Shown here: one piece after another, positions 35,374 to 45,000 of the stretch
Position numbering within the stretch: position 1 is the first letter of the stretch
How the letters are laid out: each line of letters starts with the position of its first letter
NCBI GenBank assembly: GCA_035549195.1
Contig: DASZRK010000040.1
Span: 1 to 64,000 of the forward strand
Length of the DNA stretch: 64,000 nt
Origin: a bacterium
GTDB taxonomy: Bacteria; Oederibacteriota; Muellerivitia; Muellerivitales; Muellerivitaceae
Direction of reading: 5' to 3'
Position numbers and translations under genes: made by a program
The notes under the pieces: generated by a model
Seen by the model: the letters and a program-made list of their open reading frames with translations, nothing else
The model's database searches: none
Told to the model about the DNA's origin: nothing

Positions 35374-35410
35374 CCAATAAATTACATAACTTTTGCATGA
35401 AGGAGTCAGA

Positions 35411-36577
35411 ATGGCCTCTTTTACCCCCAAGAAAGAACACCGCTTCTCGTTCGGCCTCTGGACCACCGCCAACCGCGGCCGCGATCCCTTCGGCGAGGAG
35501 ACCCGGGCCCGTCTCGATCCCATCACCAATATCAAGGAACTGGGCAAGCGCAACGTCTACGGCTTCAACTTCCACGATGACGACCTGATCCCCTTCGGCG
35601 CCTCCCTTCAACTGCGCAACAAGATCATCAAAGAGACCAAGAAGGCCATGAAGGACTACAAGATCGCCTGCGCCATGGCGACCACCAACCTTTTCTACCA
35701 CCGCATCTTCAAGGACGGCGCCTTCACCAGCCACGACCCGAAGGTGCGCGCCTTCGCCCTGCAGAAGGTCATGAAGAACATGGACCTGGGGGCGGAACTG
35801 GGCGCCACCGTCTATGTCTTCTGGGGCGGCCGGGAAGGCACCGAAGTGGACGCCTCCAAGACCCCGGAGGAGGCCCTCAAGCGCTACCGGGAATGCATGA
35901 ACTACCTCTGCGCCTACGCGCGCCACAACGGCTACAACTTCAAGTTCGCCATCGAACCCAAGCCCAATGAGCCCCGGGGCGACATCTTCCTGGCCACCGC
36001 GGGCCACGTGCTGGCCTTCATCGAGACCCTGGACCATCCCGAGATGGTGGGGGTGAACCCGGAGATCGAGCACTCGCGCATGGCGGGGCTCAACACCTAC
36101 CACGACTTCGCCCAGGCCATGGAAGCGGGCAAGCTCTATCACGTGGACCTGGGGGCCCAAAAGCCCAACCGCTTCGACCAGGACCTGCGGTTCGGGAGCG
36201 AGGACCTGAAGGAGACCTTCTTCGTGGTCAAGCTGCTCGAGGACAACCACTGGGCGGGCACCCGCAACTTCGACGAGCATCCCTACCGGAGCGAGGACGA
36301 GAAGGGCGTCTGGGACTTCGTGGAAGGGTCCATGCGCACTTACCTCATCCTTTGGGAGAAGGTGAAACAGTTCAATTCGGACAAGAAGATCCAACAGATC
36401 CTCAAGGACATCCATGGGTCCGACCCGGGCCTGGAGGGGATCATGCGCCGCTACACGCCCGAGGGCGCCGACCAACTGAGGAAGAGGGTCTTCGACCCGA
36501 TGGCCATCTCCAAGAAGCGCCTTCCTTACGAGGAACTGGACCAGCGCCTGCAGGAACTGTTGCTGGGCGTCCTTTAA
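35411..36577 (+). CDS. xylA: Xylose isomerase, class I (short form)
   Basis: 388 residues, like the Streptomyces/Actinoplanes enzymes and about 50 shorter than class II. RFSFGLWTTANRGRDPFGEE, GVTFHDDD-equivalent FNFHDDDLIPFG (catalytic His), VYVFWGGREGTE, and the metal-binding segment FAIEPKPNEPRGD are all present, with HVDLGAQKPNRFDQDLRFG near the end. It converts D-xylose to D-xylulose using two divalent metals. ATG 35411 has AAGGAG seven bases upstream. It leads a locus with a regulator, a binding protein and xylulokinase. Confidence 0.95.
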   Translation: MASFTPKKEHRFSFGLWTTANRGRDPFGEETRARLDPITNIKELGKRNVYGFNFHDDDLIPFGASLQLRNKIIKETKKAMKDYKIACAMATTNLFYHRIFKDGAFTSHDPKVRAFALQKVMKNMDLGAELGATVYVFWGGREGTEVDASKTPEEALKRYRECMNYLCAYARHNGYNFKFAIEPKPNEPRGDIFLATAGHVLAFIETLDHPEMVGVNPEIEHSRMAGLNTYHDFAQAMEAGKLYHVDLGAQKPNRFDQDLRFGSEDLKETFFVVKLLEDNHWAGTRNFDEHPYRSEDEKGVWDFVEGSMRTYLILWEKVKQFNSDKKIQQILKDIHGSDPGLEGIMRRYTPEGADQLRKRVFDPMAISKKRLPYEELDQRLQELLLGVL

Positions 36578-36668: not shown

Positions 36669-37661
36669 ATGGGTGTGACGATCCAACAAATAGCGGCCAA
36701 AGCGGGGGTCTCCAAGGCCACCGTGTCCCGCGTGTTGAACGGTTTGGCGGTCAAGTACGAGACCGAACAACGCGTGAAGGACATTATGCTGCAGATGCAG
36801 TACCGACCCCACCGCTTCGCGCGGGGCTTGGCGGCCCAGCAGACCGGGTTCCTGGGCGTGGTGACGCCTTCCATGGACCCCTTCATCGCCTCCGTCATCA
36901 TGGGGATGGAACAGGAGGCCCGCCGCTACGGGAAGCTCCTGACCCTGGGCGTGGTCCAGGAGAACGGGGAACCGGAGGCGGAGCGGGAAGTGATCCGCAC
37001 CATGACCGAACCCCCGGTGGTGGACGGCCTGCTTTTCTTCCTGCCCACGACCGCCACCGAGAACCTCCTGAAGAACCTCATCCGCAAGGGATTCCCCCTG
37101 GTGGTCCTCTGCGAGAGGCGTTTCGAGAGCCTGGCTTCCTCGGTGGTCATCGACAACTTCGACGGGGCCCAACAGGCCGTCAAACACCTGATCTCCAAGG
37201 GCCATAAGCGCATCGGGTTCGTCGGAGGTCGCCCCGAACTGAGCGATTCCACCGAGCGGTTGGAAGGCTATAAGGCCGCCTTGGGCGAGGCGGGGATCCC
37301 GATCGATAACTCCCTCATCCTGCCCGGGCAATATATGGTGAAGTCGGGCCTGGAGGCGGGGGAGAAGTTCCTGGCCATGGCCAATCCGCCGACCGCGGTC
37401 TTCGCCGCCAACGACGCCACCGCCATCGGGGTGCTGAAGGCCCTGCGGGAGCGCAAGAAGGAAGGGACCATGGCGGTCGTCGGGTTCGATGACATCGAGA
37501 TGGCCTCCCTGGTGAGCCCGACCCTGACCACCGTGAGCTACGACCTCCATGAACTGGGCCGGAACGCCGTTCACAAGCTCATGCGGCTCGTGACGGGCGA
37601 GGAGAAGAACCGTTCGGTGCTGCAACTGAAGCCGAATCTAGTGGTCAGGGAATCGGCGTAA
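36669..37661 (+). CDS. LacI/GalR-family transcriptional regulator
   Basis: 330 residues. The N-terminal helix-turn-helix is TIQQIAAKAGVSKATVSRVL, followed by hinge PHRFARGLAAQQTGFLGVV. The periplasmic-binding-protein-like core has VVIDNFDGAQQAVKHLISKG, RIGFVGGRPELSDSTERLEG and FAANDATAIGVLKALRER. It probably binds the AACCGGTT operator before xylA and senses xylose or a phosphorylated derivative. It lies 91 bp after xylA. The ATG is preceded by CGGAGG. Confidence 0.93.
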   Translation: MGVTIQQIAAKAGVSKATVSRVLNGLAVKYETEQRVKDIMLQMQYRPHRFARGLAAQQTGFLGVVTPSMDPFIASVIMGMEQEARRYGKLLTLGVVQENGEPEAEREVIRTMTEPPVVDGLLFFLPTTATENLLKNLIRKGFPLVVLCERRFESLASSVVIDNFDGAQQAVKHLISKGHKRIGFVGGRPELSDSTERLEGYKAALGEAGIPIDNSLILPGQYMVKSGLEAGEKFLAMANPPTAVFAANDATAIGVLKALRERKKEGTMAVVGFDDIEMASLVSPTLTTVSYDLHELGRNAVHKLMRLVTGEEKNRSVLQLKPNLVVRESA

Positions 37662-37788: not shown

Positions 37789-39072
37789 ATGAAAAAAACA
37801 ACCGTGGTTCTTTGGGCGGTCCTTTCAGCGGTCCTGTTGGCGGGTTGTTCCAAGAACAACGGCCAAACGGTCCGGCTCGCCCAGTTCCTCACCGATCCGG
37901 TGCTCATCGAAAAAATGACCCGGGTCGTTCACGATATCGAGGCGCGGCATCCGGGCCTGCATATCCAGGTCGATAACATCCCCTACAACGAATACCAGCA
38001 GAAGATCACCACCCAACTGGCGGCCGGCAACGCCCCCGACGTCATCTTCGTGGAGGTGAACAACTTCGTGGACCTCTATCTGCGCGGGGTCTTCGAGGAC
38101 CTGACGCCCTATTGCCAGAAGGACGGGGTGGACCTGAAGGGCTATTACGAAGGGCTCGTCCGCCGCTTCAGCCCCGACGGTAAGACCTACGTCCTGCCCC
38201 AGGACACGGCCCCTTCGGGGCTCGTTTTCTACAACAAGAAGCTCTTCCGCGAGGCAGGGCTGGACTATCCGACCGCCAAGTGGTCCTGGCCCGAACCCTT
38301 CCTCACGATCTGCAAGAAACTCACCAAGACCGACGCCGCCGGGAACGTGACCCGCTGGGCCTTCACCGACGCCTATTCGACCCAATACGATAATTTTCTC
38401 TACAGCAACGGGTCGAACTATGTGGACGACGAGGCCCATCCGACCCGCTTGATCCTGGACGATCCGAAGGCCATCGAGGCCATCACCTTTCGTTGGGCCC
38501 TGATTCAGAAACACCACGTGTCGCCCGACCCGTCCCAGATCCAGACCATCAGCCCTGCGGCGGGGCAGATGGACATGTTCCTCAACGGGCGGGTCGCCAT
38601 GCTTTGCTCGGGGATCTGGCAGACCCCCCGGTTCCTGGAGAAGAAGGACCTGGACTTCGACGTCGTCGAGTTCCCCCGCGGCCCCCAGGGGATCCAGGGT
38701 TGGGGCACGGGCGGGTCGGGCTACGCGGTCTCCAAGAGCTCCAAGAACAAGGACCTGGCCTGGCTGGTGGCCAAGGAGATGACCACGGCCGCCTCGCTCA
38801 CCCAGATGACCCAGACGGGCATGATGCAGCCGGCCCTGAAGAGCCTGGCCGAGTCGGACATCTTCTTGAAGGCGCCGGGAGCGGAGCACAAGGCCATCCT
38901 CCTCAAGATGCCGGCACACGCCCATTACCAGCCTTTCCTGGCCAGTTGGCCTGAGATCTTCTACGGGACCCTCACCCCGGCCTTGGATTCGGTCTGGATG
39001 AGCCAGACGGGTCCGGCCGATGTGCTGCCGGGGCTGACCAAGAAGATCAACGAGAAGTATTTCAAAAAATAA
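37789..39072 (+). CDS. Sugar ABC transporter substrate-binding lipoprotein, family 1
   Basis: 427 residues. The signal VVLWAVLSAVLLAGC ends in a lipobox, so the mature protein starts with a lipidated Cys. The fold is recognised from ITTQLAAGNAPDVIFVEVNN, LVFYNKKLFREAGLDYPTAK and FLNGRVAMLCSGIWQ, all typical of maltose-binding-like SBP family 1. Ligand is unknown but context suggests xylose or xylo-oligosaccharides. No permease or ATPase gene lies in the locus, so its transporter must be encoded elsewhere. A CGGAGG site precedes the ATG. Confidence 0.93.
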   Translation: MKKTTVVLWAVLSAVLLAGCSKNNGQTVRLAQFLTDPVLIEKMTRVVHDIEARHPGLHIQVDNIPYNEYQQKITTQLAAGNAPDVIFVEVNNFVDLYLRGVFEDLTPYCQKDGVDLKGYYEGLVRRFSPDGKTYVLPQDTAPSGLVFYNKKLFREAGLDYPTAKWSWPEPFLTICKKLTKTDAAGNVTRWAFTDAYSTQYDNFLYSNGSNYVDDEAHPTRLILDDPKAIEAITFRWALIQKHHVSPDPSQIQTISPAAGQMDMFLNGRVAMLCSGIWQTPRFLEKKDLDFDVVEFPRGPQGIQGWGTGGSGYAVSKSSKNKDLAWLVAKEMTTAASLTQMTQTGMMQPALKSLAESDIFLKAPGAEHKAILLKMPAHAHYQPFLASWPEIFYGTLTPALDSVWMSQTGPADVLPGLTKKINEKYFKK

Positions 39073-39082
39073 ATAGCTATTC

Positions 39083-39178
39083 ACCACAGAGGGCACAGAG
39101 AACACAGAGAGAAGCTATTGGGTTTGAAGCCGTAACACCATCCGTGTTTTCTCTGCGACCTCTGTGTTCTCTGTGGTT
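39083..39178. repeat. CACAGAG-type inverted repeat element
   Basis: The left arm ACCACAGAGGGCACAGAGAA continues ACACAGAGAG; the right arm TTTTCTCTGCGACCTCTGTG continues TTCTCTGTGGTT and is its near reverse complement. About 30 nt arms flank a 33 nt centre. This CACAGAG(G/A) family is widespread in intergenic regions of unrelated environmental bacteria. The element ends 2 bp before the ribosome binding site of the next gene. Confidence 0.8.
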
Positions 39179-39192
39179 CAAGAGGGGTTGCC

Positions 39193-40263
39193 TTGGAATT
39201 AAAGATAAAACTCCAACGCCTTCGTGGTTTGATCCGGGAACATCGGTTGCAGGGGATCCTCCTTTCCAATCGGGCCAATTTCTCCTGGCTCACGGGCGGG
39301 CATACCAGCCATATCAGGTCCGACGTGGAGAAGGGGGTGGCCGCCCTCTGGGTGACCCCCGCGAACGTGGAACTTTGGTGCAACTCCATCGAGGAGAAGC
39401 GGTTCCGGGAGGAAGAGGCAAAGGGGCTTCCTTTCGCCTACCGGACCCATCCTTGGTACGAGCCCGCAAAGCCCAGGCGCAAGAAAGCCGCTTCCGATGA
39501 CGGGGCCTATGGGCTTCCGTCCTTGAAGGATGAGATCGCCCGTTTGCGGTGGTCCCTTTTACCGGAGGAAATGACCCGCTACCGCCGGGTGGGAAAGCTT
39601 TCCGGCGAGGCCATGGAGATCGTAGGCAAGAAGGTCCGTCAAGGCTGGCGCGAGAACCAGGTGGCCGCCGAGCTCTCCAAAGAGCTGGTGGACCGGGGCC
39701 TGGAAGCGACCGTCATCCTGGTCGGTTCTGATGAGCGCCTGAAACGTTATCGTCACCCACTGCCCACCACTAAGAAGATCCAGAACAGGGTCATGATGGT
39801 CATCTGCGCCAAGGGTCATGGGCTCATCGCCAATCTTACCCGTATCGTCCATTTCGGGCCGATGCCTATGGACCTCCGGCTTCGCCACCGGGCTTGCCTG
39901 CAGGTGGAATGCGCCATGTGGGACAAGACGGCCATTGGGATAGAGGCCCGAGAAGTTTTCCAAGCTGGCGTTTCGGAGTATGCCGCCCAAGGTTTCGACG
40001 GCGAGTGGAAGAAGCACCACCAAGGCGGTCCCACGGGTTATGAAACCCGGGACTATTTGGCTACCCCTAGTTGTAAAGAAAAGCTGGTGGCGAACCAGGC
40101 CCTTGCCTGGAACCCTTCCATTACGGGAACCAAAAGCGAGGACACGGTCCTTTTAACGAAGAAGGGGTTGGAAGTCCTGACCTCGACCCCGAATTGGCCG
40201 ATGGTGGAAGTGAAGTGTAGCGGGAAGACCTTTGAACGGCCCGATATTCTTGAAGCGAAATAA
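39193..40263 (+). CDS. M24 (aminopeptidase P/creatinase-like) protein lacking metal ligands
   Basis: 356 residues. The N-terminal domain (1-110) resembles the creatinase fold (RLRGLIREHRLQGILLSNRA); the C-terminal pita-bread domain starts at about 120. Expected dinuclear-metal ligands are missing: the VDxG position reads VICAKG, the SDxTR position reads ANLTR (Asn for Asp). GGPTGYETRDY stands where HGIGxxxHE is usual. Known family biology: metal-free relatives such as creatinase act on other amide or N-methyl substrates, and similar proteins occur near sugar genes. Activity cannot be assigned. TTG 39193 has AGAGGGG about five bases upstream; it lies between the SBP and xylB. Confidence 0.75.
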   Translation: MELKIKLQRLRGLIREHRLQGILLSNRANFSWLTGGHTSHIRSDVEKGVAALWVTPANVELWCNSIEEKRFREEEAKGLPFAYRTHPWYEPAKPRRKKAASDDGAYGLPSLKDEIARLRWSLLPEEMTRYRRVGKLSGEAMEIVGKKVRQGWRENQVAAELSKELVDRGLEATVILVGSDERLKRYRHPLPTTKKIQNRVMMVICAKGHGLIANLTRIVHFGPMPMDLRLRHRACLQVECAMWDKTAIGIEAREVFQAGVSEYAAQGFDGEWKKHHQGGPTGYETRDYLATPSCKEKLVANQALAWNPSITGTKSEDTVLLTKKGLEVLTSTPNWPMVEVKCSGKTFERPDILEAK

Positions 40264-40278
40264 AAGACGGAGGATCCT

Positions 40279-41811
40279 ATGTCTTTCGTGATCGGTTGTG
40301 ATGTCGGCACTTCGGGGACCAAGGCCATCGTGGTCTCGGAGTCGGGCAAGATCCTTTCCAAGGTGACCGTCGAATATCCCCTCTCCACGCCGCATCCAGG
40401 TTGGGCCGAGCAAGACCCGGACATATGGGTCAGAGCCTCTTTTCAAGCCATTGCCGGGGCGGTGAAAAAGGCCCGCGTAAAGCCTTCGGACGTGAAGGCC
40501 CTCGGTTTTTCGGGCCAGATGCACTCCTCGGTCTTTCTCGATAAGCAGGGCAAGGTCCTGCGCCCGGCGCTCCTTTGGTGCGATACCCGCACCCATGAGG
40601 AATGCCTGGAGATCACCCGAAAGGTTGGGGAGAGCCACCTACGCCAATGGGTCTCCAATCCCGCTCTCGAAGGTTTTACCCTTCCTAAGATCCTTTGGGT
40701 CAAGAAGCACGAACCCAAGACCTACGCCAAGATCGCCCAGGTCCTCATGCCCAAGGATTACGTGCGCTACAAGCTGACCGGGGCCTTGGCCACCGAAGTT
40801 TCCGACGCCGCCGGGACCCTTTATTTCGATGTGAAGAACCGGCGTTGGTCCAAGGAACTCCTGGGCAAGTTGGGGATCCCCTTGGCTTGGTTCCCGCAAG
40901 TCGTGGAGTCCCAGCAGATCTGCGGGCGCCTGACGGCCCAAGTCGCCAAGCAGCTGGGCCTTCGGGAAGGTTGCCCTGTGGTCGGAGGCGGCGCGGACAA
41001 CACATGCGGAGCGGTGGGGAACGGGATCATCAAATCCGGGGACGTCATGGCGAGCTTGGGCACTTCCGGGGTCTTCTTTGCCCACTCGGACAAGGTCAAG
41101 GTCGATCCGGGCCTGCGGGTCCACAGCTTTTGCCACAGCGTGCCGGACAAGTGGTATTTGATGGGTGTCATCCTCTCGGCGGGCTTCTCCTTGCAATGGT
41201 ATCGGGACACCTTGGGCTTGAGCGAAAAGGACCTTGGGAAAAGGACCGGGACCAGCGCCTATAAGATCCTGAGCCAGATGGCCGGAAGGGTCGCTCCGGG
41301 AAGCGAAGGACTCCTGTTCCTACCCTATCTCATGGGCGAAAGGACGCCCCATAAGGATGCTTACGCCCGGGGGGCTTTCGTGGGGATGAGCGCCCGGCAC
41401 GGGAGGGCCCATTTCGCCAGGGCCGTCTTCGAGGGCATCACCTTTGCCATGCGGGATTCGCTCGAGATCTTCCGGGAATTGAAGGTGCCGATCCGCCGGG
41501 TGGTGGCGACGGGTGGCGGGGCCGCCAATCCCTTCCAGCGCCAGATGCAGGCGGACATCTATGGGGAAGAAGTGGTCACGGTGAACAGTGAGGAAGGGCC
41601 GGCCTATGGGGCGGCCATCCTGGCCATGGTGGGGGCTAAACTATATCCTTCGGTCCCCGCGGCCTGCTCCAAGCTCATCCGGGTGGTCACCCGGACCCAA
41701 CCCAACACGAAGAGGGTCAAGGAATACGACGTTTGGTATGGGGAATACCGGGAACTTTATCCGGCCTTGAAAGGTTCCTTCCGGTCCATCGGGGAAAGGC
41801 TGAAAACCTGA
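40279..41811 (+). CDS. xylB: Xylulokinase (FGGY family)
   Basis: 510 residues. IGCDVGTSGTKAIVVSESG is the phosphate-1 loop, LGFSGQMHSSVFLD contains the conserved xylulokinase motif with sugar-contacting residues, and VGGGADNTCGAVGNG bears the catalytic Asp. RRVVATGGGAANPFQRQMQ closes the C-terminal domain. It phosphorylates D-xylulose at O5, feeding the pentose phosphate pathway and completing the xylA route. ATG 40279 has GGAGG-type spacing (ACGGAGGATCCT). It is the last gene of the locus, 15 bp after the M24-like gene. Confidence 0.95.
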   Translation: MSFVIGCDVGTSGTKAIVVSESGKILSKVTVEYPLSTPHPGWAEQDPDIWVRASFQAIAGAVKKARVKPSDVKALGFSGQMHSSVFLDKQGKVLRPALLWCDTRTHEECLEITRKVGESHLRQWVSNPALEGFTLPKILWVKKHEPKTYAKIAQVLMPKDYVRYKLTGALATEVSDAAGTLYFDVKNRRWSKELLGKLGIPLAWFPQVVESQQICGRLTAQVAKQLGLREGCPVVGGGADNTCGAVGNGIIKSGDVMASLGTSGVFFAHSDKVKVDPGLRVHSFCHSVPDKWYLMGVILSAGFSLQWYRDTLGLSEKDLGKRTGTSAYKILSQMAGRVAPGSEGLLFLPYLMGERTPHKDAYARGAFVGMSARHGRAHFARAVFEGITFAMRDSLEIFRELKVPIRRVVATGGGAANPFQRQMQADIYGEEVVTVNSEEGPAYGAAILAMVGAKLYPSVPAACSKLIRVVTRTQPNTKRVKEYDVWYGEYRELYPALKGSFRSIGERLKT

Positions 41812-41870: not shown

Positions 41871-41904
41871 AAAAGCCCCTGAAGCTTTCGCTCCAGGGGC
41901 TTTT
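41871..41904. terminator. Bidirectional terminator between xylB and the cold shock gene
   Basis: AAAAGCCCCTG and CAGGGGCTTTT pair around the AAGCTTTCGCTC centre. T-rich tails stand on both sides, so it can end xylB (+) and the cold shock gene (-). Confidence 0.85.
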
Positions 41905-42271: not shown

Positions 42272-43012
42272 TTAGGGCTTTACTTTGAGCAAAGGCGTCG
42301 AGCCGAGACCCCGCCATTGGGCCTTGGCGAAGCCCTCGAAGGCGGGCCGGTCCAGGAAGAGGCCGTAGGCGTTCTTGCCCGACTTTTGGGCCGCGAGCCT
42401 GACCAGTTCCTGGTGGGTGGCGGGCATGGAGGCATTGGCCAACTTCCCGGGGGGGAAGGGCTCGAAGGTCGAGAGGCGCACGATGCTTCCATGGGCGAGA
42501 TCGGCGTAAAGGGAGGTCCACCAGTCCTTCCCTTCGTGGACGCCGACCAGGAAAGAACAGTCGGGTTCCAGTTTTTCCTTCACGAAGCGGCGACTGCGCT
42601 CGAAATAGTGGTAGTAATCGTAGGCTTCCCGCGGCGGGTGGATCAGGAATCCGTTGCCCTGGGTATCCTTCAGGGCCTGGGCCCTTTCCTTGAACTCGTA
42701 ACCCGTCAATTCCTCGGCCTTTTTCAGGTCTAAGGCTTCCCGGTAATAACCCATCAGGCCTTCCCGGTCGATCAGTTGGACCTCGTCCACCCCATGGGCC
42801 TTTCGGAGGGTTTCGGCCAGTTCCCGGGAAGGTTCTAGGATTTCCTTCAGGAGGACCCTCCCTTTCCGGCTGTCCCAAGCCTTCACGACCCTGCCTTTTT
42901 CATGGAGCACATAGAGCGTCCGGGGGTTGGGTTGGGCGATCTTGGAGATGTCCACGAAGCGGCGGGCTTGTTCGATATCGATGTGCTCGAACTTGACGTC
43001 CGGATGGATCAT
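42272..43012 (-). CDS. Conserved unknown protein coupled to a GH35-like galactosidase
   Basis: 246 residues from the ATG at 43012, chosen because GGAG lies about seven bases upstream and the ATG overlaps the upstream stop as ATGA. It has no signal peptide or membrane helix. The sequence is rich in aromatic and charged residues (REAYDYYHYFERSRRFVKE; SFLVGVHEGKDWWTSLYADL). I do not recognise a family. Tight coupling to the galactosidase suggests a partner role in glycan use. The gene ends about 150 bp before the cold shock gene. Confidence 0.75.
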   Translation of the reverse strand: MIHPDVKFEHIDIEQARRFVDISKIAQPNPRTLYVLHEKGRVVKAWDSRKGRVLLKEILEPSRELAETLRKAHGVDEVQLIDREGLMGYYREALDLKKAEELTGYEFKERAQALKDTQGNGFLIHPPREAYDYYHYFERSRRFVKEKLEPDCSFLVGVHEGKDWWTSLYADLAHGSIVRLSTFEPFPPGKLANASMPATHQELVRLAAQKSGKNAYGLFLDRPAFEGFAKAQWRGLGSTPLLKVKP

Positions 43013-45000
43013 GGGCGCAGCTCCCAAACGGTGACCGACCAGGGTTCCAGGACTAGGTGGCCTTGCTTGAGGGGTTTATCCTCGGGGATCCCGTAAAGTG
43101 GGGCGAGCTTCTGGGAGACCTCGAAACCGGCCGGGGCATCCTGGGCGTTGGCCAGGAACACCATGGTCTTGCCATCCTTATGGAACCGGGTGGCCAGGAC
43201 CTGGTTCGGCAGGCCTTCCAGGACGGGGTTCACCCCGGCTGAGGCCAGGGTTCGGAGCAGTTTTCCCTCATCGAACTCCCTTATCAGGACCACCCTGCCT
43301 TTTCCGACCTTGGCTTCGGGCGCCGAGTGGAGTTCCGGAAAGGCGCAGTAGGGTTTGTAGTCGGCGTCCAAGGAAGGGACCAGGGGTCCCATCAGGACCG
43401 TGCCTCCTTCCTCGGCGTAGCGGCGCAGGTTGTCCTGGGCCTCCTTATCCAAGGCCTCGAAGGTCGGGACCCAGACCACCTTGTGGCCGCGCAAGCGTTC
43501 CAGGGGGGCCACTGTATCCGAACAGCGCAAGGGCAGATGGTTCCGAAGGGCGAACGACCATGACCCGTCGGACCAACGGGGGACCTCCTCCTCGACGCGG
43601 TAGGGAAAAAGCCCCTGCTCCTCTTCGTAACCGATCTCTTCGGGCAGGAAGTGGACGAAATGGTTCTCCACCTTCTTGAGGGCCTTCAGGAGGCGGTCCT
43701 GGTCGTAGTTGGCCAGGAGCAGGAGGTCCGCCTGCAGGTCCCATTCGTGGAAATGATGGCGTTTCAGGAAGGCGTTCCAGTGACGGTACATTTCGAAATA
43801 GGGGGTACGGATCTTGTTGTCCTGGGTGATGGGGCTTCCCATCCAGCGGTCCCGCTCCACCAGCATGTAGTAGTTGACGGCCTTGAGGCCGAACATGAAA
43901 AGAAGGGGGGTCGTGAACCGCTCGTCCGTGACCGTGAAGGTGTTCTCCCAAAGGGGCAGGGACCAGCAACCGGACCCGAACTCGGGGATGAAGGGGAGTT
44001 TGGAGGTGCCCGCCAAGTAGCTGGCGATGCGGGAGGTGGCCAGGAACTGCTCTTTGCGGGGGTAATTGTCGATGCCCACCACGTCGAGGCCGAATCCCCC
44101 CCATTCCGCTTGGTTGGTGTTGTAGGGGCTGGTCAAAGGCCCGAAGAAGTTGTGGAAGAAGGGGATCCCGTCCACACCCCTTTCCTTCCACATTTCCCCC
44201 ACCTGCTTGAGGCATTGGTTGATCTGCCATTCCTTGTAGCGGCTCCAGTCCAGGTAATAGGGAAGGTCCTTCCGTTCCTTTCCGTCGAAGGAACGGGGCG
44301 GTTCGATCTCCTGGAAGGACCGGTAGGTGGTGCCGTAGGTCCGGTTCAGGGCCTCCAGGGAACCGTGGCGCATTTCCAGGAAGGTCCGGTACCAGAGGAG
44401 GGAATCGTTGCCGTAGTCCAAGAGATAGGCGCCGGTGCGGAAGAAATAACCGGTCTCATTGTCCACCTGCAGGGCCACGATGGGGCCTTCCGGATGGAGG
44501 TTGCGCTTGAGGATGGGGGCCAGGGCGTCAAACCAAAGGGCGGTCTCGGCGTAGAGCTTGCCCGAGGCGTAGCTGGGATTCGGGAAGGCCTTGGGATAGG
44601 CGTCATGGATGGAAAAGGCTCCGGAGGCTTCCTGGGCGGCGACCTCGGGGTCGTAAAGGACGCGGGCGGGGTAGCCGAAAAAGGTCAGCTCGGCGTTGAT
44701 GTGGGGCCCGGGCCGAACGATGAGCTTCAGGTCGGCCTGGTGGACCTTCTGGATGAAGCCTTCCAGGTTCTTGTTGGGGTCGGTCCCGCCGAAATCGAAG
44801 CGTCCCCGCTCGACCTCGTGGACGGCCCAGGGGATGTAGGTCTCCACCATGGAAAAGCCCATGGCCTTGATGTTGGCCAGTACATCGGCCCAAAGCTCAT
44901 GTTGGACGCGCCAATAGTGGAAGGTGCCGCTGATCCAGGGTTCGGGGCCTTGCCCCGAATAGACGAGACCCCGTTGCTCTTGGACGGTCACCCTGGACAT
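43009..45000 (-). CDS. Glycoside hydrolase, GH35-like beta-galactosidase
   Basis: 663 residues. The barrel opens SGTFHYWRVQHELWADVLAN then MGFSMVETYIPWAVHE, the GH35 pattern. VRPGPHINAELTFFGYPA replaces the usual GPYICAEW segment. QVDNETGY has the acid/base Glu, PFIPEFGSGCW the likely nucleophile Glu. A Rossmann-like domain (GGTVLMGPLVPS) and a beta tail follow. No signal peptide, so it acts in the cytoplasm. Divergence from classical GH35 motifs leaves GH42 or another clan A family possible. ATG 45000 follows AAAGGA. Confidence 0.82.
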   Translation of the reverse strand: MSRVTVQEQRGLVYSGQGPEPWISGTFHYWRVQHELWADVLANIKAMGFSMVETYIPWAVHEVERGRFDFGGTDPNKNLEGFIQKVHQADLKLIVRPGPHINAELTFFGYPARVLYDPEVAAQEASGAFSIHDAYPKAFPNPSYASGKLYAETALWFDALAPILKRNLHPEGPIVALQVDNETGYFFRTGAYLLDYGNDSLLWYRTFLEMRHGSLEALNRTYGTTYRSFQEIEPPRSFDGKERKDLPYYLDWSRYKEWQINQCLKQVGEMWKERGVDGIPFFHNFFGPLTSPYNTNQAEWGGFGLDVVGIDNYPRKEQFLATSRIASYLAGTSKLPFIPEFGSGCWSLPLWENTFTVTDERFTTPLLFMFGLKAVNYYMLVERDRWMGSPITQDNKIRTPYFEMYRHWNAFLKRHHFHEWDLQADLLLLANYDQDRLLKALKKVENHFVHFLPEEIGYEEEQGLFPYRVEEEVPRWSDGSWSFALRNHLPLRCSDTVAPLERLRGHKVVWVPTFEALDKEAQDNLRRYAEEGGTVLMGPLVPSLDADYKPYCAFPELHSAPEAKVGKGRVVLIREFDEGKLLRTLASAGVNPVLEGLPNQVLATRFHKDGKTMVFLANAQDAPAGFEVSQKLAPLYGIPEDKPLKQGHLVLEPWSVTVWELRP

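Follow-up and report, generated by a model that had tools for sequence, protein, structure and literature searches.

A putative metal-free aldose mutarotase built on the M24 peptidase fold in a bacterial xylose locus

The window, meaning the whole 64,000-nucleotide stretch of DNA analysed here, contains a xylose utilization locus with five genes on one strand in the order xylA, lacI, a sugar-binding lipoprotein gene, a gene for an M24-fold protein and xylB. The features of the locus are as follows.

35393..36577, + strand, xylA, xylose isomerase (TIGR02631, E = 5e-144, above cut-off)
36669..37661, + strand, LacI-family regulator (profile matches in Pfam and NCBIfam)
37789..39072, + strand, sugar-binding lipoprotein (SBP_bac_1, Pfam)
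39193..40263, + strand, M24-fold protein gene, TTG start, 356 aa, predicted xylose mutarotase
40279..41811, + strand, xylB, xylulokinase (TIGR01312, E = 2e-180, above cut-off)
41871..41904, no strand assigned, terminator-like hairpin of 15 pairs, 3' of xylB (reported for the − strand, nearly symmetrical)

The M24-fold gene's stop codon and the start of xylB are 15 bases apart, and the hairpin probably marks the end of the transcription unit. The earlier note had placed the M24-fold gene between a xylose-binding lipoprotein and xylulokinase. The position was correct, and the position of the lipoprotein gene suggests xylose as its substrate. The locus contains no sugar dehydrogenase, and no Aldose_epim (PF01263) gene was found in the window's genome. 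The latter absence says little, since GalM is rare across the wider phylum: Aldose_epim was present in 2 of 44 same-phylum relatives (genomes G000–G044).

The gap between the lipoprotein gene and the M24-fold gene (39083–39177) contains an imperfect inverted repeat with 31-nt arms, 81% complementary. It is built of CACAGAG units, the pair of which occurs nowhere else within the window, and looks like a dispersed intergenic repeat. Past the xyl locus, the opposite strand (42272–45000, −) carries a GH35/GH42-like glycosidase (43009–45000) and then a 251-aa protein for which neither Pfam nor NCBIfam gave a significant hit.

The M24-fold protein matched Peptidase_M24 (48.7 bits against a cut-off of 23, E = 1e-12) and Creatinase_N (E = 1e-5), each passing its curated threshold. 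These were its only Pfam domains, with no match to Aldose_epim (PF01263), and no NCBIfam equivalog was matched. Both Pfam and the fold search indicated a creatinase-type layout, with a creatinase N-terminal domain followed by an M24 domain. The gene is present in a single copy in the window's genome. The AlphaFold model had a pLDDT of 97.3 and a pTM of 0.94, and the best Foldseek matches in the PDB were prolidases, creatinase and the ectoine hydrolase DoeA (TM about 0.75, identity 11–20%), with Spt16 N-terminal domains also among the matches. Retention of the fold, as claimed in the earlier note, is thus borne out by the Pfam match, the model and the top PDB matches. With identities of at most 20%, no member of the family itself appears in the Foldseek PDB list. 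By sequence, the closest solved relatives are prolidases (family profile versus Pyrococcus horikoshii 1wy2, E = 2e-21); creatinase 1chm matched the family profile weakly (E = 0.061).

Nine ordinary M24 proteins, drawn from the genome searches as controls, were aligned with 117 sequences of the family to examine the metal site. The segments concerned are listed below.

39754..39756, + strand, codon of H188, an invariant His (117/117) also found in ordinary M24 proteins; candidate acid/base
39799..39843, + strand, VICAKGHGLIANLTR (residues 203–217), deletion of the first metal Asp, N214 in place of the second
40015..40029, + strand, HHQGG (residues 275–279), G279 in place of the metal-ligand His; H276 and Q277 invariant
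40105..40143, + strand, AWNPSITGTKSED (residues 305–317), N307 in place of the metal Glu; K314 and E316 invariant

The family retains one of the five dinuclear-metal ligands, whereas 9/9 controls have all five. In the alignment, the first Asp was removed by a two-residue deletion before C205. The position of the second, Asp in 9/9 controls, is N214 here and across the family holds Ser (67), Asn (31), Ala (13), Cys (4) or, once each, Phe and Tyr. The His of HxxGH is Gly in 117/117 members versus His in 9/9 controls, and the Glu of EPG is Asn in 117/117 members versus Glu in 9/9 controls. The fifth ligand, the Glu of (R/K)xED, corresponds to E316 and is the only one kept (117/117). The second-shell catalytic His of M24 enzymes is R286 in 117/117 members.

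These results agree in most respects with the earlier note, which had described a protein without metal ligands. The motifs it quoted (VICAKG and ANLTR for the lost Asp ligands, GGPTGY for the HGIG region) are all present, with both Asp ligands gone and Gly at the position of the His ligand; the description stands for four ligands and fails for E316. Because four of five ligands are lost, the canonical dinuclear site, judged from the aligned sequences, cannot form in this family, and the protein is most likely metal-free. Nine pocket residues are invariant in the 117 aligned members (E67, R182, H188, H276, Q277, R286, N307, K314 and E316), and all nine are included among the 22 invariant positions of an 87-row alignment. 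Chance and gene decay were ruled out as explanations, since the pattern of ligand loss is fixed across a large, intact family spanning many phyla, with an invariant pocket.

A family scan yielded at least 564 confirmed loci. Homologues with 67–77% identity occur in relatives, including candidate division FCPU426. Those with 33–45% identity come from other members of the phylum, from many phyla besides it, from haloarchaea and from plasmids of Thermus and Pantoea. Public records annotate family members as M24 metallopeptidase or aminopeptidase P. One homologue, in relative G003 (L006:470–1525), contains a single in-frame TAG, which is either a sequencing error or the mark of a pseudogene.

Across the family, the gene recurs in operons for different sugars. 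Beyond the window, it adjoins xylA/xylB on Thermus plasmids (xylF-permease-ATPase-ROK-xylA-xylB-[M24-fold gene]-Gfo/Idh) and lies at four Bacillales xylA/xylB loci. Another 18 Bacillales loci carry it in galK-galT-galE operons with many gene orders. In Bacillus sp. NTK071, the operon reads LacI-galK-galT-GH42-galE-[M24-fold gene], galE overlaps the M24-fold gene by a few bases, and Aldose_epim (PF01263) is absent from the genome. Fucose/rhamnose-type isomerase/FGGY-kinase loci hold members in Chloroflexota and other groups. A role restricted to xylose is ruled out by these galactose and fucose/rhamnose contexts together with uronate ones. The suggestion of the earlier note that the protein is a non-peptidase tied to sugar use is supported.

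Neighbour enrichment was calculated over metagenome and genome loci and the window, with the remaining ORFs of each locus as background. FGGY kinases clustered by the M24-fold gene (11 within 3 kb, 1 further; p = 4e-5), as did galactokinases (7 within 3 kb, 2 further; p = 0.008), and Pfam tallies of adjoining genes agreed with both enrichments. SMC genes were also clustered next to the M24-fold gene, which we take as lineage synteny in WS1/Zipacnadia.

In the family tree, sugar context was assigned to all but 71 of the 117 sequences. The subclades follow the context, with galactose in Bacillota, fucose/rhamnose in Chloroflexota and a separate uronate group. Parsimony gave three xylose lineages (FCPU426, Thermus and Bacillales), of which supported branches force one. 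The uronate-linked subclade comprises loci L070, L084, L164, L168 and L169; in the first of these, from Tepidanaerobacter, the M24-fold gene adjoins genes for 5-deoxyglucuronate isomerase (iolB) and tagaturonate reductase. A divergent Aldose_epim gene lies about 6 kb from the M24-fold gene at a uronate locus of one Bacillales genome (G134). At L050, L058, L071, L073, L093 and other loci, the neighbours of the M24-fold gene are SMC/FtsY (WS1/Zipacnadia) or further genes unrelated to sugars, so that an operon-bound function may not hold for the family everywhere.

The relationship between the family and the mutarotase GalM was analysed in 250 genomes of Bacillales, the order of Bacillus sp. NTK071. 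The M24-fold family was found in 31 of them, Aldose_epim in 155, galactokinase in 140 and xylose isomerase in 94. At 150 listed galK loci, GalM was present within 9 kb at 55 and the M24-fold protein at 18, with no locus having both (Fisher's test, p = 1.6e-4, kinship ignored); GalM was counted here among the matches listed, down to near E = 2e-40. A direct tblastn search of 97 galK loci gave the same picture (GalM 37, M24-fold protein 18, both 0).

The contrast extended to whole genomes. Where the M24-fold gene lay in a gal operon, GalM occurred anywhere in the genome in 7/18 cases, compared with 113/122 for the remaining galK genomes (Fisher's test, p = 5e-7, relatedness ignored), and at E < 1e-40 in 3/18 versus 107/122 (p = 2e-9, relatedness ignored). 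All 13 genomes with the M24-fold gene in a non-gal context had GalM. No genome-level GalM anticorrelation was seen over all Bacillales carriers whatever the context; it appeared only with gal-operon placement. On the galK tree, the association takes 8 changes, at least 5 of them forced by supported branches. Part of the exclusivity at galK loci reflects shared ancestry, since GalM-linked galK genes in Bacillales fall mostly into one large clade. Tree-corrected pairs pointed in the same direction (2.6 versus 0.3 of 5), with too few pairs for significance. At Bacillales xylA loci, the counts were 36 for GalM, 4 for the M24-fold protein and 0 for both; with so few cases this is not significant alone.

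The second set consisted of 181 genomes of Chloroflexota, the phylum of locus L107, of which 29 carried the M24-fold family, 104 galK and 57 Aldose_epim. The M24-fold gene lay within 6 kb of galK in 4 of the 23 genomes having both, against a chance expectation of about 0.1 estimated from genome size, and the gap was about 49 bases in one genome (G480) and about 27 in another (G365). GalM adjoining galK was not found in this set, nor was a clear genome-level GalM anticorrelation.

At xyl and gal loci, the M24-fold gene occupies the mutarotase place of sugar operons. Operons that handle a free sugar usually carry a mutarotase gene, namely galM, fucU, rhaM or xylM, and a free reducing sugar is common to the xylose, galactose and fucose/rhamnose pathways. 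We propose that the protein of the window is a putative metal-free aldose mutarotase of the M24 fold, acting here on xylose, and assign this reading a probability of roughly 0.6. With slightly less confidence, we favour the broader view that the family is a large mutarotase class derived from the M24 peptidase fold by metal loss, spread over many phyla and haloarchaea, with subclades that follow the sugar and replacement of GalM in whole lineages.

In the window's organism, the protein would interconvert α- and β-D-xylopyranose and would thereby supply xylose isomerase (xylA) with the usable anomer, before the xylulokinase (xylB) step. Candidate acid/base residues in the old metal cavity are the invariant H188, H276 and E316, while R182, R286, K314, N307 and Q277 may hold sugar hydroxyls. 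Proton transfer between O1 and O5 would open the ring, which would then close on the other face. Creatinase, which is metal-free, relies on one His and one Glu of this cavity, and H188 and E316 are the natural candidates here.

XylM was first found in the xylan operon of L. lactis, and for some xylose isomerases the addition of a xylose epimerase made the use of xylose better and faster (PMC10629123). RhaM supplies the less-favoured anomer of rhamnose (PMC3870299). In the Moorella thermoacetica cluster xylAB-xynR-xylM-xylFGH, xylM was called a mutarotase in 2025 with no family given (PMC12285236); it could be a member of the present family. No description of an M24-fold mutarotase was found in the literature searched, which is no proof of novelty.

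Three other functions, each considered unlikely, were weighed against mutarotation. A sugar lactonase would hydrolyse aldonolactones produced by nearby sugar dehydrogenases in oxidative pentose or fucose routes. Such a role would suit the Gfo/Idh/MocA and SDR oxidoreductases adjoining the member in Thermus, the Pantoea gene order (ROK, MFS, GMC oxidoreductase, [M24-fold gene], SDR), the oxidative pentose-type genes near the Halobacterium member and the aldo/keto reductase adjoining the gene in some Chloroflexota. However, the tightest linkage of the family is to galK-galT-galE, xylA-xylB and fucI-kinase pathways, which yield no lactone. The dehydrogenase-free locus of the window also argues against a lactonase, which moreover leaves the replacement of GalM unexplained. 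The lactonase-like or hydrolase role raised in the earlier note has less support.

A second improbable alternative is another metal-free hydrolase, similar to creatinase or DoeA, whose substrate would be a sugar that is damaged or conjugated, such as a glycosylamine or an early glycation adduct. Metal-free C–N hydrolases exist within the M24/creatinase fold, the nearest folds include creatinase and DoeA, and repair of glycation would suit any free aldose. On the other hand, no recurring amine-handling genes were seen beside the M24-fold gene, and such an activity would again not account for the loss of GalM to this protein in gal operons. Mutarotation fits all contexts better than either lactonase or hydrolase activity.

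It is similarly doubtful that the protein is a non-catalytic sugar-binding pseudoenzyme, serving as a sensor or assisting the sugar kinase or isomerase as a chaperone, in the manner of Spt16 or EBP1, which use the fold without catalysis. The lost catalytic metals, the Spt16 domains among the fold matches and the adjoining FGGY kinases are consistent with this, but the invariance of many charged pocket residues across a phylum-wide family suggests catalysis, and such operons already contain regulators (LacI, ROK). An ordinary M24 aminopeptidase or prolidase whose ligands have moved, the reading of public records and one compatible with the Pfam match, is barely conceivable and was rejected on the alignment of 117 members and nine controls, in which every member lacks four of five ligands, and the catalytic second-shell His is Arg throughout. 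The condition set by the earlier note for refutation, five ligands preserved elsewhere, found no support in the sequence alignments: the four positions hold a gap, N/S, G and N, while the conserved residues of the pocket are different ones.

If the mutarotase reading is true, the family represents a previously undescribed kind of mutarotase, a new fold for this activity that fills the missing xylose and galactose step in organisms without GalM. It would also offer engineers a further xylose epimerase and show that the scaffold of a peptidase can be adapted to the chemistry of sugars. The peptidase annotations of its members in public databases are probably wrong.

Among the known systems nearest to the family is M24B prolidase (Xaa-Pro dipeptidase): the family profile and P. 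horikoshii 1wy2 are homologous over the full length, both have the two-domain pita-bread fold (TM about 0.77), and the His corresponding to H188 is conserved in both, as is the last of the Glu ligands. The family differs from prolidase in the loss of the other four ligands, the change of the catalytic His to Arg286 and the sugar operon setting. Creatinase (1chm) and DoeA (6twk) have the same fold and are examples of metal-free use of the M24 scaffold, but the M24-fold protein is only 11–14% identical to them and, unlike them, is set in sugar operons. RbsD/FucU and RhaM are small proteins of other folds with no sequence relation to the family in Pfam, and they likewise perform mutarotation in pathway-specific operons. 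The aldose 1-epimerases GalM and XylM (PF01263) are β-sandwich proteins, unrelated in sequence and never found together with the M24-fold protein at one Bacillales galK or xylA locus; what they share with it is the proposed reaction and the place in gal and xyl operons.
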